This document shows, one piece after another, positions 32,057 through 39,244 of a stretch of DNA of 64,000 bases. The translations under genes were made by a program, and so were the position numbers. Source of the stretch: Luteitalea pratensis (GTDB taxonomy: Bacteria; Acidobacteriota; Vicinamibacteria; Vicinamibacterales; Vicinamibacteraceae); contig NZ_CP015136.1 of NCBI RefSeq assembly GCF_001618865.1, positions 1,709,001 through 1,773,000 on the forward strand, in the 5' to 3' direction. The notes under the pieces were generated by a model, which searched no databases, had not been told where the DNA came from, and saw only the letters and a list, made by a program, of their open reading frames with translations. The first letter of the stretch is position 1, and every line of letters starts with the position of its first letter.

Positions 32057-33340
32057 TCAGATCCGCAAGAACACCTTGCGGTTGTACATCCAGTACAGCG
32101 TGCCCCAGTAGATGGCGAGCACCGCGACGCCCTCGACGAACGGGGCGGGACCGGTGCCGAACAGGTCGAAGATGCCCTGCCCCAGGTGCGTCTTGAACGA
32201 CGAGACGATGAACGACTCCCACAGGTGCGCGACCACGTATGCGGCGATCGAGTTGAGGCCGATCACGACGAGCGGGAAGGCCCAGCGGCGGTAGCCCTTC
32301 ATGTCGATGACCCACGAGAAACCCGCGAGCAGCAGGTAGCAGAGGCCACCACTGAACAGCGTCCAGGCCGGGGTCCAGATGCGCTTCACGATCGGGTTGA
32401 TGCCAGCCACGTGCAACACGACGCCAGCGGCGACCAGGGCGGCGCCGGTCACGAGCAGCCACTGCAGCGGGATTCGGGGCGACGCGCCGCGCAACTGGCG
32501 GCCGGCGATGAGGCCGAGGATCATCGTGCCGAGCGTCGGGATGAAGCTGAGGGTGAGGTAGCCACCGCGGTTGGCCACGAACAGCCGCTCCCGGGGGAAC
32601 AGGTTGAGGAACCAGGTGTCGAACGCCTGCCCGAGATTGGCGTTCTTGTTCCAGTGCGCCATCAGCCCGGTGTAGTGATGCGTCCAGTCGGCGGGCACGC
32701 CGACGGCAGCGAAGTCATAGCCGGCACCGGCGACAGGGAAGAGCGCCCACGCGAGCCAGTAGCCGCCGAGGATCACTCCCAGCGCGATCCAGAGACGGCG
32801 CGTCGACTGCGTCGCCAGCAGGAAGAGGAACGGGTAGCCCATGCCGATCTGCGACAGGGTGTCTTCGAAGGTGAAGTTGGTCTGCTGCCGACCCATCGAT
32901 CGCAGGAACACGCCGAGGGCGATGAGGATCAGCGAGCGCCACGCCGCGTGCGCGAAGGCCTTGCCGAAGCCGTCCTCGGCGACACGGCGCGCAAACGAGT
33001 AGGCGAGGGCGACGCCCACCAGCAGCGAGAACGACGGCTGGATGAGATCGTGGAGCGACGCACCCGCCCACGCGACGTGAGTCTGGTGGTACGCGAGCAC
33101 GTTGATCAACCAACTGCCGGGATACGCCGCCGCCACCTTGGCGAGCTGCAGCACCTCGGCCATCATCAGGAACATCACGAAGCCGCGGTAGGCGTCGACG
33201 GCGACGTTGCGGACCGTTGGAGCAGCAGCACCAGGCAGGGTCAGAGCCGCTCCGACCGCAGGCACTTCGCCCCGCTCGGACAGCGGGGCGCTACCATGCG
33301 CAGCCTCGGCGGTCTTTGTGTTGGGGGGAATGTCGTGCAT
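32057..33340 (-). CDS. DUF5009/HGSNAT-like membrane acyltransferase
   Basis: From ATG 33340 the protein has 427 residues, with about ten transmembrane segments after a 45-residue cytosolic start. The motif RNVAVDAYRGFVMFLMMAEV matches the first helix of the heparan-alpha-glucosaminide N-acetyltransferase/YeiB-like family (D-x-x-RG). The later ASLHDLIQPSFSLLVGVALAYS and IGLNSIAAYVVAHLWES are also typical. The family moves acetyl groups across membranes to amino sugars. The gene is the third member of the minus-strand run TonB receptor, M29 peptidase, acyltransferase. Substrate not determined. Confidence 0.8.
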   Translation of the reverse strand: MHDIPPNTKTAEAAHGSAPLSERGEVPAVGAALTLPGAAAPTVRNVAVDAYRGFVMFLMMAEVLQLAKVAAAYPGSWLINVLAYHQTHVAWAGASLHDLIQPSFSLLVGVALAYSFARRVAEDGFGKAFAHAAWRSLILIALGVFLRSMGRQQTNFTFEDTLSQIGMGYPFLFLLATQSTRRLWIALGVILGGYWLAWALFPVAGAGYDFAAVGVPADWTHHYTGLMAHWNKNANLGQAFDTWFLNLFPRERLFVANRGGYLTLSFIPTLGTMILGLIAGRQLRGASPRIPLQWLLVTGAALVAAGVVLHVAGINPIVKRIWTPAWTLFSGGLCYLLLAGFSWVIDMKGYRRWAFPLVVIGLNSIAAYVVAHLWESFIVSSFKTHLGQGIFDLFGTGPAPFVEGVAVLAIYWGTLYWMYNRKVFLRI

Positions 33341-33351
33341 GGGCACAGCTT

Positions 33352-33536: not shown

Positions 33537-34649
33537 TTACCTCCGCGACGTCAGGTCGACCAGCTTGCCGTTCTTCACGAGCGTGGTCGAGCCGACGGTC
33601 ACCGTCGTGTCGGGGAAGAACAGCCACCGCACGCCGCCGCCACGGACCGCGCCACCGATCTCCTCGTTGTCGCCCAGGCTCAGGCGGACGACGGCGTCCC
33701 CGTAGCCGTAGTAGGGAAGCGCCGTCTGACCGGCGGGGACGACCAGCTTCGGGTTGAAGCCGAGGCCGAACTCCCGGAACTGCTTCGCCCCCGGCGCCGA
33801 CGCCAGGAAGGCGTCCAGCGCCGCCTGACCCTCGTCCGCGGTCGCCTTCACCACAAGTCCGTCCTTGATCTCGAGACGCGCGCGCGTCACCACCGTCGCG
33901 CCGAACCGGGCCTTTGGAACAACGAGCGTCCCCTGCACCGTCGACTCCAGTGGGGCCACGCGCAACACGCCTGCCGGCAACTCCACTTCGCGGTCCACGC
34001 GCACCTTCGCCTCCGCGATCCGCTCGCGCGACGCGTCGCCATCCTGCAGGTTGAAGGGCCGATCGCCGACGCGGAAGCGGATGTCCGTGCCCGCCGGCGT
34101 CGTCACCCTCGCCTCGGCCGAGCGCAACAGGCTGGCCGCGGCACGCTGCCGGCGGCCGAGCACCGCGTAGTCGATGTTCAGCGCATCGAGGTAGACCGCG
34201 TCGTAGGCCGGCGTGTGCGCGACCGGCAGTCCGTCGGCGTCACGGGTCCCGCCGTTCCAGTGGAAATGGATCTGCCGGCCCTTGCCCTCATCGAGCCATT
34301 TCGCGAGCAGGGCCCGTTCGGCGGGGCCGGTGTTGGCCGATTCGCCGGCCGGCAACCAGATGTAGACATCCGTGCGCGCCAGGCGGGCAGCGAGGTCCGC
34401 CGCGGGCGCGTAGGTCAGCGACTCCACGACCGCGCCGGCGGCCTCGAGTTGCTTCCGGACCACCGGCTCGAGCGCGCCGTAGGTCTGCGGGTCGTAACGC
34501 AACAGCACCCGCTCGCCCTTGCGCACCTCGAGGGAGCTCACGATGCGCGAGGCGAGCGTCTCCCACGGGAGATCCTGCGCCGCGGCGGTGTAGGACGACG
34601 TGCCGACGAGCAGCACGGAGGCAAGCAGTATTGGCAATGTTCGCTTCAT
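33537..34649 (-). CDS. exported M29-like aminopeptidase
   Basis: This 370-residue protein has a signal peptide (MKRTLPILLASVLLVGTSSYTAAAQ). The N-terminal Rossmann-like part (KGERVLLRYDPQTYGALEP) and the C-terminal core (FREFGLGFNPKL, YYGYGDAVVRLSLGDNEEIGG) match the AMPS/M29 thermophilic aminopeptidase family, in which Glu, His and Asp residues bind two metal ions. FGLGFNP is a family landmark, and the downstream GDN is consistent. Most M29 enzymes are cytosolic, so the signal peptide is notable. It lies 67 bp after the TonB receptor gene on the same strand and may digest peptides imported or captured by it. Confidence 0.82.
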   Translation of the reverse strand: MKRTLPILLASVLLVGTSSYTAAAQDLPWETLASRIVSSLEVRKGERVLLRYDPQTYGALEPVVRKQLEAAGAVVESLTYAPAADLAARLARTDVYIWLPAGESANTGPAERALLAKWLDEGKGRQIHFHWNGGTRDADGLPVAHTPAYDAVYLDALNIDYAVLGRRQRAAASLLRSAEARVTTPAGTDIRFRVGDRPFNLQDGDASRERIAEAKVRVDREVELPAGVLRVAPLESTVQGTLVVPKARFGATVVTRARLEIKDGLVVKATADEGQAALDAFLASAPGAKQFREFGLGFNPKLVVPAGQTALPYYGYGDAVVRLSLGDNEEIGGAVRGGGVRWLFFPDTTVTVGSTTLVKNGKLVDLTSRR

Positions 34650-34716: not shown

Positions 34717-37524
34717 CTAGAACTGCACTTTCACGCCGAGCCGGACGAGCCGGGCGTCGACGTTGCGCGAGATGCGCCCGAGTGCTGCGCCCACCTGTTC
34801 CACCTCGGTGACCGAGGCGTTCTCGTTCAGCACGTTGTAGACCTCGAGCAGTGGTTCCACCGTGAGCCCGCGACCCAGGCTGAAACGCCGTCCGAGGCGC
34901 ACGTCGAGCAACGACTGATCGGGCTTGCGCTCTTCGCCGGTCGGCAGCAGCAGCACGTCCTGGCTCACCTGCCGCAGTGTCGGCGCTACTGTGCGGGTGA
35001 CGGTGTAGATGCGGCGCAGCGGCTGGCCGTCGTAGTGGGCGAAATGCGCCGCGGCCTGCAACTGCCACGGCAGTTGATAGATGGCCGACAGGTTGACGAT
35101 GACGCGCGAATCGAGGAGGTCGTCGCCCTCGGAGTTGATGCGGTCGTTCGGGTTGGTGCTGGCCGACGTGTTGGCTGTGTTCTTTCCGAACGTCACGCCG
35201 CCCAACAGTGCCAGCCCGCCAGCGAAGCGACGGGTGACGGTGGCCTCCACGCCCTGGTAGCGCTGATCCAGCAGGTCCGAGTTGATGAGCGCGTTGTCGA
35301 CACGGCCGATGCTCGCCGCCGACTGGTTGTAGATCGTGAACGGCGTGCCGTCGAGCGGGTTGGTGATCTCCAGCGGCGTGAAGTCATCGGGCGAGATCGC
35401 GAGGTTCACCACGGCCGTCAGGTCGCGGTAGTCGCGGCGGAACCAGCTCACGGCCACGGAGAAGTCGTCGGCCAGCTGGTGTTCGAGGCTGGCGCTGTAC
35501 TCCCACTGCGTCGGACGCTTCAGGCCATCAGAGATCCGCACGGTGGCGCCGCGATCGAGCGCGCCCTGGCCAGGCCCGATTTCGTCCAGCTGCGGGACGA
35601 GATCGCCGTTGCGATCGTTCCAGCTGCGATTCTCCGTGTTCTGCCGGAGGGGATTGAACTGGTCGATCAGCTGCGAACCCTGTCGCTGCGCGTACTGGCT
35701 CGCGCTTGCCTTGACCACCGTACGCCCGCGGCCGCTGAGATCCAACGACGCCGCGAGGCGCGGCACGAAGGTGTTCCACACGACCAGGTTCGACTGCGCC
35801 TCGAACGTCCGCGCCGGCACGAATTGCCCGGCGGCCGCCGACTGCTGGCCGAGACTGCCCGTGTGCCGCTCGAATCGCAGGCCCGGGTTGATCGTCAGGC
35901 GTGGAGTGATCGCCCACGAGTCCTGCACGAACACGCCCAGTTCGAGCTGGCTCATGTTCGTGCTGACCGGCGTGTTGTACACCGTCACCGAGTCCGGCAC
36001 GCCGTTGCGATAGCGCGCCACGAGGTCGCCGTGCCCAAGCGAGTCGAACTCCTGGCCGTATGGCGCGTGTTGCACCTGCACACCGGTGCGCACCTGGTGC
36101 TCGCCGCGCCAGCGTGGCAGCCATGAGAGCACCGCGTTCCAGGTCCGCCGCTCCTGCGTCGCCCGAAGCATCGCTGGCGGCGGTGCGCCCGTGAGCGTCG
36201 ACTGGGCGATATCCACCCGCGGTAAGGCATCGGCCGCGAGATCGGGCTGGTAGTCGAGCGACCAGGGCACGTAGTACCAGGAGAAGCCCGTGTCGAGCAG
36301 CAGGTTCGAACCCAGGGTCGATGTCAGCTTCGTGTTGGCCACCGGCCCCCACAGCGGCGAGTAGTAACTCGCTTCCGGCGAGACGAACTGGTAGGCCGCC
36401 GTCGTCTGGCGGCGATGCTCGCGGAGCTTGTAGTTGTAGTCGACGAAACTCGTCAGCCGATTGGCGCGGTTGATCTGCCACGTCAGCTTGCCTGTCGCAT
36501 TCCAGATGTAGTTCTCGTCGAGGGCCTGCGTTCCATCGGGATTGAACGTGTTGGCCTCGAACCGATCGACCTGGAAGCGCCGTGCACTGCCATAGAACCA
36601 CAGCGCGTCCGGCTTGATCGGTCCTCCGACACCGCCGTTCAGGTCGTTGAACACGTCCATCGCACTCGGCGCGATCAAGCCACGCTCGCGCTGGGCATCG
36701 CTCACGTTGCTGCCCTGTAGTGCGCCACTCGTGTAGGTGCTGAACAACTCGCCGCGGAAACGGTTGCCGCCATCCTTGGTGATCATGTTGACGCTGACGC
36801 CGCCGGCGCCGATCTCTGCCGGCAACGCGCGCGTCTGCACCACGATCTCCTGGTAGGCGCCCTGGTTCGGGTACTGGCCCGAGACGCCGCCCGATCCCGT
36901 GTTCGACGTCATGTCGAGGCCGTCGGTATTCCAGACCAGGTCGCGTGTCTGCGAACCGTGGATCGAGACGCCCGCTGTCTGACCGGTCTCGGACCCGCCG
37001 ACGTCAGGCCGCGCCGTCACCGCGCCCGGCACCAGCATCACCGCGACGTTCGGGATGCGCCCGACCGGAATGCCCTCGATCAACTCCTGGCTCAGCGGCC
37101 GTTCGGACGTGCCCGATCGCGTGTCGATCACCGGTGCGCCACCCCGCACCGTGATCGCCTCGTCGAGCGCGCCGATCGACAGCGTCGCGTCCACGGTCGT
37201 GGTGATCGCCGTGGTCAGCAGCACGTGTTCGCGGCGGACGGTCTGGAAGCCGCCGAGCGAGAACGTGAGGGTGTAGTCGCCAGGCCGCAGATCCACGACG
37301 CGGTAGCGGCCATCGTCGGTAGTGACGGTGGCCCTGGTGCGCTCGATCAGGGCGGGACTCGCGACTTCGACCGTCGCGCCTGGCAGGGCCGCACCGGAAC
37401 TGTCGAGCACCACGCCGACAAGCGTGGCAGTGGACTGCGCGGAGACGATCGCGGGCGACGCGGCGACGAGCGTCGCGATGGCCCACGACCCCAACACGCG
37501 GGGAGGTGAAAGATGCGGGTACAT
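34717..37524 (-). CDS. Oar-like TonB-dependent outer-membrane receptor
   Basis: This is a 935-residue receptor. The signal peptide ends near IVSAQS, followed by a carboxypeptidase-regulatory-like domain (VVLDSSGAALPGATVEVAS; DDGRYRVVDLRPGDYTL). The plug (ITVRGGAPVIDTRSGTS, VSIHGSQTRDLVWNTDG, VSVNMITKDGGNRFRG) leads to a beta-barrel ending in VRLGVKVQF with a C-terminal Phe. ATG 37524 is chosen because GAGGAC precedes it; the upstream extension lacks a signal-like pattern. It leads a run with an exported M29 peptidase and a DUF5009 acyltransferase. A Cys-rich micro-ORF lies 160 bp upstream on the same strand. Confidence 0.92.
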   Translation of the reverse strand: MYPHLSPPRVLGSWAIATLVAASPAIVSAQSTATLVGVVLDSSGAALPGATVEVASPALIERTRATVTTDDGRYRVVDLRPGDYTLTFSLGGFQTVRREHVLLTTAITTTVDATLSIGALDEAITVRGGAPVIDTRSGTSERPLSQELIEGIPVGRIPNVAVMLVPGAVTARPDVGGSETGQTAGVSIHGSQTRDLVWNTDGLDMTSNTGSGGVSGQYPNQGAYQEIVVQTRALPAEIGAGGVSVNMITKDGGNRFRGELFSTYTSGALQGSNVSDAQRERGLIAPSAMDVFNDLNGGVGGPIKPDALWFYGSARRFQVDRFEANTFNPDGTQALDENYIWNATGKLTWQINRANRLTSFVDYNYKLREHRRQTTAAYQFVSPEASYYSPLWGPVANTKLTSTLGSNLLLDTGFSWYYVPWSLDYQPDLAADALPRVDIAQSTLTGAPPPAMLRATQERRTWNAVLSWLPRWRGEHQVRTGVQVQHAPYGQEFDSLGHGDLVARYRNGVPDSVTVYNTPVSTNMSQLELGVFVQDSWAITPRLTINPGLRFERHTGSLGQQSAAAGQFVPARTFEAQSNLVVWNTFVPRLAASLDLSGRGRTVVKASASQYAQRQGSQLIDQFNPLRQNTENRSWNDRNGDLVPQLDEIGPGQGALDRGATVRISDGLKRPTQWEYSASLEHQLADDFSVAVSWFRRDYRDLTAVVNLAISPDDFTPLEITNPLDGTPFTIYNQSAASIGRVDNALINSDLLDQRYQGVEATVTRRFAGGLALLGGVTFGKNTANTSASTNPNDRINSEGDDLLDSRVIVNLSAIYQLPWQLQAAAHFAHYDGQPLRRIYTVTRTVAPTLRQVSQDVLLLPTGEERKPDQSLLDVRLGRRFSLGRGLTVEPLLEVYNVLNENASVTEVEQVGAALGRISRNVDARLVRLGVKVQF

Positions 37525-37548
37525 GGACAGGTCCTCACACGGCGTCGA

Positions 37549-37607
37549 CGGCACCGAGTGCGCCGACGGCCCGGGATCGCGTGCAGGCACACGACTCCCG
37601 TGACGGG
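37549..37607 (-). promoter_or_regulatory. leader hairpins between micro-ORF and TonB receptor
   Basis: Three short stems are visible in RNA orientation: CCCG-TCA-CGGG (37607-37597), CGTG-TGCCTG-CACG (37593-37580) and CGGCGC/GTGCCG (37565-37549). Mutually exclusive folds would fit an attenuator coupled to the Cys-rich micro-ORF. This is inference from position and pairing only. Confidence 0.25.
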
Positions 37608-37683
37608 TTACGGAAGCAGGAAAGACGGACGTCAGGCCCGGGCGGCGTTGCCGCGGCAGGTACCGGTCAGGAGTGACGCGCGG

Positions 37684-37800
37684 CTAGTGACAGCAGGGGC
37701 AGGAACAGCGACAGGCGCACATCGTCATGCGGCGCATCACGGGCGTGATGCTGGGGGACACGAGGTTCCCGGCGCCTGAGGATGTCTGGATGGTGCGCAT
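37684..37800 (-). CDS. cysteine-rich 38-residue micro-ORF (possible leader peptide or metal-binding peptide)
   Basis: ATG 37800 opens a 38-codon frame that ends in CACRCSCPCCH just before TAG, with six cysteines in the last eleven residues. The first half (MRTIQTSSGAGNLVSPSITP) is ordinary. No strong Shine-Dalgarno is seen, so translation is unproven; leaderless or weak initiation is possible. Similar Cys-run micro-ORFs act as cysteine-responsive attenuators in actinobacteria, and Cys-x-Cys peptides can also bind copper or zinc. Here it lies on the same strand 160 bp upstream of the TonB receptor gene with hairpins between, which fits a leader peptide. Confidence 0.4.
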   Translation of the reverse strand: MRTIQTSSGAGNLVSPSITPVMRRMTMCACRCSCPCCH

Positions 37801-38050
37801 GGCTTGAGGTCAGCGGCCGGACGTCGGCGTGGCTGACCCTTCGAGGATAAACCCTTGCTTGCCCAACGCGAGCGCGGAATGTGACATAGCGGAAAGGACG
37901 GAGGAGGGAGGACGGAGGAGGGAGGACGGAGGAGGGAGGACGGAGGAGGGAGGTAGGACGGAGGGCGAGAACGGAGAACGGAGCCCGGAACCCGGTACCC
38001 GGAGAACGGCGGCGATCCGCATCGCGGCATTCGGCATTACGCTGTGCACA
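37801..38050. other. 250-bp upstream region of the oxidoreductase gene with a purine-rich array
   Basis: It holds a four-copy 14-bp tandem repeat (37898-37953) and GGAACCC/GGTACCC-like units near 37985-38000. No further gene is supported. Confidence 0.5.
37898..37953. repeat. four perfect copies of a 14-bp purine-rich unit
   Basis: The unit ACGGAGGAGGGAGG is repeated four times with no mismatch, i.e. a doubled 7-bp period with almost all purines on the plus strand. It carries several Shine-Dalgarno-like GGAGG cores but no start codon at a suitable distance. Confidence 0.85.
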
Positions 38051-39244
38051 ATGCTCAGTCACTCCATCACGATGCTCGGTGCCGGGCTCATCGGCGATTT
38101 CTACACGCGCACGCTGCACGCGCAGCGCAGTCGCGATCGGGTCGACGTGATCTACTCGCGACAGGCGGCTCGCGCCGCGGACTTCGCGCGGCGGTGGGGC
38201 GTGCCGCACGCACTCACCGACATGGCCGCGGCCATCGCCCATCCACAGACCGACGTCGTCGTGATCGCGCTTCCCAATCACCTGCACGAGGAGGCTGTCG
38301 GCATGGCGGCGCAGGCGGGCAAGGCGGTGCTGTGCACCAAGCCGCTCGGGCGCACGGCCGACGAGGCGTGGCGGATGCTGAAGGTGGTCGAGGACGCGGG
38401 CGTCTTCGCCGGTTACCTCGAGGACCTGTGTTACACGCCGAAGACCCTGAAGGCGATTGCGTCGGTGCGCGAAGGCGCGGTCGGTGAGGTGACCTGGGTG
38501 CGGGCGCGCGAGGCGCACCCGGGTCCGCACGCCGCGTGGTTCTGGGACCATCGGCTCACCGGCGGCGGCGCGATCATCGATCTCGGCTGCCACTGCATCG
38601 AGATCATCCGCAACTTCGTCGGCAAGGGGAACCGCCCCGTGGAGGTGATGTGCTGGGCCGACACGCTGGTACACCCTGTCGAGGCCGAGGACAACGCGGT
38701 CGCGCTCGTGCGCTTCGCATCCGGCGCGCTCGGCCAGTTCGAAGTGAGCTGGACGTTCCGCGGCGGCATGGACCTGCGTGACGAGATCGCCGGCACCCAC
38801 GGCACGATCTGGTTGAATCACTTCCTGCGCACCGGCTACGAGATGTTCACGGCGGCACGGCGTGCCGGGTATGTCGCCGAGAAGGCGGAGACGGCTGATG
38901 GCTGGTTGTTCCCGGTCGGCGACGAAGTGGCCGAGCTCGGGTACGTCGACATGTTCACCGACATGTTCGAAGCGATGGAGGCCGGGCGACAACCGCAGGA
39001 ATCCTTCTACGACGGCGTGGTGGTCAACGCGGTGATGGACGCGGCGTATCGGTCAGCGAAGAGCCGGCTATGGGAGCCGGTGACGCTGCCAGACTGGCGG
39101 GGCGGCGACGTGCCGAGGCTGCACGTCGAGCCGGAGATGTTCGAGGGGCAGCTCGTGATCAAGCGCGAGCTGCTCCCCGATGGTCGTGCCAAGCTGATTG
39201 TTCGCGATCCCGCCACTGGCGACTTCAGCGAACAGGTCAGGTGA
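38051..39244 (+). CDS. Gfo/Idh/MocA family oxidoreductase
   Basis: This 397-residue NAD(P)-dependent dehydrogenase has the N-terminal Rossmann motif [15 protein letters not shown], cofactor and substrate landmarks [29 protein letters not shown] (the Lys of the E-K-P-like motif is kept; the Glu is Thr) and [19 protein letters not shown] (active-site D and H). The family oxidises or reduces sugar or inositol derivatives; the substrate is not deducible. ATG 38051 is chosen because the Rossmann strand starts right after it. It is monocistronic on current evidence. Confidence 0.9.

Follow-up and report, generated by a model that had tools for sequence, protein, structure and literature searches.

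A short cysteine-rich reading frame that precedes the genes for a TonB-dependent receptor and an M29-family peptidase is best explained as the leader peptide of an attenuator that would sense cysteine through Cys-tRNA, a reading to which we give, from sequence comparison, a probability of about three in four. It is supported in silico by a Cys-rich frame in four leaders, by a leader start shared with sulfur operons, and by terminator/antiterminator pairing in the sulfur leaders. The frame lies in the window (the whole 64,000-nucleotide stretch of DNA that was analysed), which is part of a genome of 7,480,314 bp in a single contig. Acidobacteriota are abundant soil bacteria, and if the reading is right, one leader class gains a likely ligand, genes and a structure-based mechanism, and two surface receptors gain a likely nutrient signal, sulfur in organic form.

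Results

The cysteine-rich frame and its neighbours

Translation confirmed the closed minus-strand frame of 38 codons given in a preliminary description of this DNA, MRTIQTSSGAGNLVSPSITPVMRRMTMCACRCSCPCCH, whose final 11 residues, CACRCSCPCCH, hold six cysteines; the 3' end of the frame is MTMCACRCSCPCCH. The 38-codon extent is probably too long, and the likely coding unit is the 12-codon MCACRCSCPCCH, which begins with ATG-TGC like the leader starts of sulfur operons. The gap to the receptor start, put earlier at some 160 bp, is 159 nt from the stop codon of the Cys frame to the ATG at 37524, and it was rightly remarked that no strong Shine-Dalgarno sequence can be seen: none is visible before the ATG of MCACRCSCPCCH. 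The features of the region are as follows.

37800-37684, minus strand: closed frame of 38 codons, MRTIQTSSGAGNLVSPSITPVMRRMTMCACRCSCPCCH (translation)
37737, minus strand: in-frame ATG that gives a 17-aa form of the 38-codon frame (translation)
37684..37722, minus strand: proposed functional leader ORF, MCACRCSCPCCH, 12 codons with 6 Cys (translation)
37672..37748, minus strand: conserved island of 77 nt, 83% identical to G003, spanning the Cys codons and the stop (sequence search)
37636..37657, minus strand: weak GC hairpin with little U tail, located where sulfur leaders have their terminator (covariance model matched in part: 4.9 bits, E 0.047 over 701 bases)
37626..37640, minus strand: weak terminator-like stem of 5 bp followed by TCTTTCC
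34717..37524, minus strand: receptor of 935 aa, CarboxypepD_reg domain and TonB-dependent beta-barrel, start ATG 37524 (Pfam, run from the second codon)
33537..34649, minus strand: second gene, M29-family peptidase, signal-like N-terminus by eye (Pfam PF02073)
32057..33346, minus strand: third gene, without a match in the Pfam run
38051..39244, plus strand: divergent GFO/IDH/MocA oxidoreductase that bounds the intergenic region (Pfam)

The Pfam assignments agree with the receptor and peptidase genes named in the preliminary description, and ATG 37524 is the most likely receptor start. The Cys frame sits in the divergent spacer between the oxidoreductase (plus strand) and the receptor (minus strand). 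In two other genomes, G003 and G059, a similar peptidase gene follows the receptor, and the third gene was not seen after the peptidase in either (both by eye).

It had been argued that such frequent Cys would be unusual in a random frame. This holds against 25 first-order random copies of the window, none of which contained a stretch with six Cys in 11 residues, but the real window has three such stretches in its six frames, and CxCxCxC shows no genome-wide excess (74 matches, compared with 90 for the reversed pattern). Most of the 30 CxCxCxC loci that we inspected lie under long open frames, the Cys frame included (461 codons), and a Leu-rich frame shadows the Cys frame. Composition alone is not decisive on a chance origin.

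Conservation upstream of receptor orthologues

We compared the regions upstream of receptor orthologues, as the preliminary description had proposed. Among 193 genomes of the class, a close orthologue is present only in G000 (the genome of the window) itself, G003 (85%), G002 (73%) and G059 (67%); the next receptor is 41% identical, and no further close orthologue was found in the order (162 genomes), the class (193) or a sample of the phylum (396). All four leaders have a Cys-rich frame with an ATG. The best closed, start-bearing Cys cluster on the sense strand of about 480 nt upstream has, within 12 codons, 6 Cys in the window and 6, 4 and 6 in the three orthologues, and the putative regulatory Cys codons are kept in 4/4 orthologous leaders.

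Under the same criteria, which were chosen after looking at the data, none of 80 control receptors (47 others of this genome and 33 elsewhere at 29-41% identity, with L136 left out) had at least 4 Cys in 12 codons; the maximum was 3, reached by 5 of the 80. Across 15 settings of region length, start and tail limits, between 0 and 5 of the 80 controls had at least 4 Cys, and not one had 6. A limit of 300 nt upstream loses the G059 frame, because the leader there is longer. When 8 and 40 other receptor upstreams of the own genome were scanned, L136 alone passed; receptors 29-41% identical elsewhere fail the test, some of them having Cys clusters at looser criteria. A looser scan of 1,100 nt found clusters upstream of 9 of 34 non-orthologue receptors, and a looser scan of receptor upstreams in the own genome found them in 4 of 40, L136 included. 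The G000 value is what drew attention to the frame and G003 shares its own by descent; G002 and G059 give the more independent support. Judged by these comparisons, the Cys frame is unlikely to be a product of chance, and it is orthology that makes it more than that.

Aligned by eye at the ATG, MCACRCSCPCCH (G000), MCACCCPSCICR (G003) and MAPAACRPCACR (G002) each run for 12 ungapped codons to the same TAG. The leader ORF of G059 is MVRLPFFCCCCCRSPRGRCHVQG; lengths among the orthologues range from 12 to 23 codons, and the residues vary. (G003 also has a frame of 37 codons whose start region is, by eye, related.) The four-way alignment was made by eye because MAFFT gapped G002 and placed G059 elsewhere. 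Of the 36 codons in the three ungapped rows, 15 are Cys, against an average of 3.2 in column shuffles, of which 0/3000 were as high, G000 having been picked for its Cys. By BLOSUM score, too, these rows exceed shuffles (P 0.005); in the G000/G003 pair alone, residue conservation does not (P 0.22). What the leaders keep is their Cys content and not their sequence. In G002 and G059 the receptor has, by eye, upstream genes other than the oxidoreductase of G000, so the frame goes with the receptor.

At the nucleotide level, a search of 12 genomes with the 171 bases 37640-37810 gave, besides the query itself, one strong match, the island in G003 (E 2e-16; all others E 0.008 or worse). A tblastn search of the 193 genomes with the 38-aa peptide gave no convincing match (E 0.005 for the best other one), and the G003 copy was not among its results.

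Cysteine-rich leaders of sulfur operons

The 18-base pattern RTGTGYGCNTGYNGYTGY was searched in the 193 class genomes. It is not itself enriched, with 25 matches in 23 of the 193 genomes and 35 for the reversed control. Seven of the 25 matches are leaders with a terminator, two belong to the receptor leaders (G000 and G003), and the other 16 fall in neither group. The seven precede siroheme synthase (G057, G078), CysD (G079, G112) and an SsuA-like operon (G004, G000), with one, in G032, unidentified; G000 has just two matches, the leader in the window and that of its SsuA-like operon. The leader start MCAC[R/C]C is thus common to the receptor leaders of the window and G003 and to leaders before siroheme synthase, CysD and the SsuA-like operon. 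It is absent from the G002 and G059 orthologues and is present in some, not all, of the 19 cysD-locus leaders described below.

The SsuA-like operon consists of an NMT1-type protein, which we term SsuA-like (by Pfam in G000; the G004 and G001 genes were called by likeness), ABC genes and PAPS reductase. Its leaders are MCACCCRALPLASALDVPRCLACCR in G004, VCACCCPVLTAASAPRTDCVQVCPH in G000 and MCACCRPAMPPASSPTATTTC in G001 (the last by eye); behind each stands a terminator-like hairpin whose tail is rich in U. We also surveyed the regions upstream of PAPS reductase and cysK/cysM-like genes in six genomes, and found Cys-rich leaders before cysK/cysM-type genes in G001, G004, G000 and G059. In G001, MLVRACACPCCCPACCRRQDVVYG precedes a PALP-family gene and then a JAB-domain gene; in G004, another gene stands between a related leader and the cysM-type gene; and in G059, a GTG-start Cys frame before cysK is accompanied by a terminator that ends in TTTTTT. 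No such leader was found at the cysK-type loci L167, L169, L170 (661 nt only), L171 and L172. At L185 (G000:C1:2558904-2559289), a related Cys leader and a JAB-domain gene remain, while the cysM-like gene that the leader precedes seems to be broken (two fragments match the profile).

A search for CysD over 161 genomes of the order matched 68 at E 1e-60, and the 30 best loci were fetched. A Cys-run leader with a terminator close behind was found at 19 of these 30, within 260 nt of the cysD match in 16 and at 787-1,116 nt in 3; among the 11 misses are a locus that has 2 upstream bases and that of G059, where the leader is before cysK. A leader-plus-terminator detector made 19 calls in sense and 0 in antisense on the cysD loci, and 1 in L041, a second-receptor leader. 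No Rfam family matches the nine sulfur-leader loci searched (E 0.5).

An alignment of 18 cysD leaders shows the Cys run and a small hairpin, GGACC..GGTCC, and 5/18 predicted pairs are changed on both sides. The hairpin is followed by GGTCCC.GCGCT.TCGGTC, which by eye is complementary to GATCGAAAGCCCGGGACC, the left arm of the terminator and its flank. Folding of the full transcript at equilibrium showed a lowering of the terminator by the stall in 4/19 only, and any switch would therefore have to be kinetic. In a shorter-transcript test, tried after the full-transcript test failed, a ribosome stalled at the last Cys codon with the transcript extending to the left arm allowed the arm to pair upstream in 19/19 leaders (median 0.87); with the ribosome at the stop codon it did so in 9/19 (median 0.50). 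Duplexes with the own partner beat permuted partners (5/5000 as good) and exceeded the mean cross pairing in 14/19, among sequences that are related and not independent. In the cysD upstreams L223-L252, the leader tail, VPALSVRL.G before the stop, encodes the antiterminator strand.

Structure and output step of the receptor leader

Hairpins are predicted in the receptor leader, as was described earlier for 37549-37607, but the leader taken whole does not exceed dinucleotide shuffles in structure (z -0.4; the best z among many 50-nt stretches is -2.6), and neither terminator nor switch action was found there. Over the four receptor leaders, whole-leader z ranges from -0.2 to -1.5; GC hairpins after the ORF, with best 50-nt windows of z -2.6, -3.0, -3.4 and -5.9, have no clear U tails. 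The receptor leader has weak hairpins alone and no strong intrinsic terminator: the stem at 37626..37640 is the sole terminator-like site in 37400-38100 (1 found, 0.2 expected), and the leader-plus-terminator detector made 0 calls in the 64-kb window and 0 in 40 paralogue receptor upstreams, L136 included. No Shine-Dalgarno switch was apparent, accessibility in G000 being 0.14 with and 0.15 without the stall, with no common trend in the other leaders. A C-rich, G-poor (Rho-like) stretch is not special, as 8 of 40 paralogue upstreams match or surpass it.

At thresholds up to E=10, the sulfur-leader covariance model R1 matches neither the window nor L002-L004, and it misses the cysM-type leaders L185 and L192 too; over 82 receptor loci it gave 4 matches, the best at E 0.06. 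Among 18 weak partial matches, two have the expected order and strand: 37718-37678 against the Cys-run part (2.4 bits) and 37657-37636 against the terminator part (4.9 bits), the latter no more than suggestive. Rfam has no match for the window region (E 1). The receptor leader is not a full member of the sulfur-leader RNA family.

In the receptor leader, the final Cys codon comes two codons ahead of the stop; in the cysD leaders the distance is 39-66 nt. Stall and release in the receptor leader therefore differ little in position. Given this spacing and the lack of a strong intrinsic terminator, a weak or Rho-dependent terminator or translational control is possible.

Discussion

Proposed mechanism and alternatives

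We assume that the leader region is transcribed, and infer translation, stalling, the ligand and the substrate of the receptor. When charged Cys-tRNA is scarce, the ribosome would stall in the Cys-codon run of MCACRCSCPCCH, and the stall would alter the fate of the downstream leader RNA such that the receptor and M29 peptidase genes are expressed. Their products would presumably scavenge sulfur-containing organic matter, for example peptides, and the combination of a receptor with an M29 peptidase, as assigned from sequence, would fit such a role. With ample Cys, the ribosome would finish at the UAG and expression would stay low. The output step might be a weak terminator, a Rho-dependent terminator, or translational control as in mycobacterial poly-Cys ORFs. 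Since the frame is kept in relatives and resembles the leaders of sulfur assimilation, more receptor is probably made when cysteine is short. A cysteine-responsive attenuator was one of three roles suggested in the preliminary description; the retained frame and the MCAC[R/C]C start before sulfur operons with terminators favour it, but the terminator or switch that would complete the comparison was not found in the receptor leader.

It is unlikely, though conceivable, that the Cys frame is a coincidence, the untranslated shadow of a CTG-rich (Leu) stretch such as a decayed signal peptide. The other frame reads VRLSLFLPLLSLAARHS, the Leu-rich shadow is kept in 3/4 leaders, and Cys-rich shadows are common in this genome. 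However, the Leu frame has an internal stop in G002 and, by eye, no ATG or GTG from which to start in G059, whereas an ATG opens the Cys frame in 4/4; a coincidence also sits poorly with the absence of such a frame from the 80 controls (0-5/80 at other settings) and with the MCAC start common to sulfur-operon leaders. The near identity of the 5' half of the island between G000 and G003, in a pair whose residue conservation is not significant, is what would be expected if the island were a DNA or RNA element (an operator, part of a promoter or a small RNA) and the ORF incidental. We regard this as quite unlikely, as G002 and G059 lack that nucleotide block and yet have the Cys-rich ATG frame (by eye).

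A nascent-peptide metal sensor of the CutF/CruR type, in which copper or another metal would bind the Cys, change stalling and control the TonB receptor, is very unlikely. The copper-responsive upstream ORFs of that type are likewise small, Cys-rich and found before a TonB-type gene, and TonB-like proteins rank with the commonest neighbours of CutF-like proteins (PMC9973294). Those ORFs have signal peptides and a PP motif at the C terminus and stand mostly upstream of metal genes, and the PP motif and the hydrophobic signal segment serve as filters for CutF-like proteins (PMC9973294). The Cys frame has no PP motif in its last 15 residues and, by reading of the sequence, neither an N-terminal signal peptide nor a hydrophobic signal segment, and similar leaders precede sulfur genes in the same genomes. 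A stable Cys-rich peptide, either a metal buffer or the precursor of a modified peptide, has only its Cys-x-Cys arrangement in its favour; we consider it highly improbable, as the orthologues differ in residues and in length (12 to 23 codons) and Pfam found no modification or export protein among six neighbouring proteins, one of which had no match. The metal-binding and modified-peptide roles that had also been suggested were thus not upheld.

Relation to known cysteine leaders

The attenuator reading places the receptor leader beside several described systems. Mycobacterial poly-cysteine leaderless short ORFs (Canestrari et al. 2020, as cited in PMC9094748, PMC9031893 and PMC13236596) are reported to respond to cysteine availability via the speed of the ribosome, at the level of translation. 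The likeness is that Cys codons cluster in a short ORF ahead of the genes concerned; here, in contrast, the phylum is another, the target is an outer-membrane receptor with a peptidase, and the system is known from sequence. For Actinobacteria, PMC1262725 describes candidate Cys leader peptides upstream of cys operons, with Cys runs near the stop and without conserved terminator hairpins. The receptor leader resembles these terminator-less leaders; many sulfur-operon leaders of Vicinamibacterales, unlike them, do have a terminator and antiterminator. By analogy, the receptor leader may be closer to the terminator-less actinobacterial and the translational mycobacterial Cys leaders, with Rho or translation as its output. 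The uORFC-8-2 motif (PMC8632094) is an upstream ORF with conserved tandem Cys codons and an intrinsic terminator before a Cys-tRNA synthetase gene; it shares the Cys-codon upstream ORF and differs in its genes and sequence, and no Rfam match was obtained here for the window or for nine of the loci.

Attenuation by amino-acid leaders is known as such. Cys attenuators in Acidobacteriota, this RNA family, and the use of such leaders before TonB receptors were not found in the literature searched, most subscription papers being outside its coverage. We lean slightly towards a wider reading, in which undescribed Cys-codon leader attenuators would form a cysteine regulon of Vicinamibacterales (sulfate activation, siroheme, sulfonate-type transport and cysteine synthase), the sensor having been recruited with a different output step for TonB receptors and the peptidase. 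Charging of Cys-tRNA would in that case directly control uptake from outside.

A second TonB receptor

MLSCQRRVACPACAVCRCACRTPTTGN lies before a second CarboxypepD/Plug/TonB receptor of G000 (L254), and MTSSLSCRCRPCACVSCRDACITPTAGW before the homologue of that receptor in G059 (L253), which is 60% identical to it. The leader regions, from two genomes of different families, are as follows.

L254 7090-7420, minus strand: leader region of the second receptor, G000
L253 950-1290, plus strand: leader region of the second receptor, G059

In G059 the second receptor comes after receptor 1, the peptidase and an M20-type-hydrolase-like gene on the same strand (by eye). Cys-rich leaders at a second receptor make a receptor branch of the Cys regulon more likely. 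The PAPS reductase/CysD domain PF01507 had no match in G002 and G003, both of which keep the receptor; reliance of these two on organic sulfur is possibly one reading, absence from drafts (95% and 94% completeness) being weak evidence. The genome of the window encodes dozens of TonB-type receptors (60 matches), so a signal that singled out two would make their substrates directly testable by Cys limitation.

Upstream of the leader, the divergent spacer contains tandem CCTCCGTCCT-like repeats (window 37893-37962, by eye). The string CTATGTCACA, about 150 nt before the leader ORF, is common to G000 (37880-37889, minus strand) and G002 (L003 1110-1119), with a similar string in G003 (by eye); it is a possible promoter or operator.
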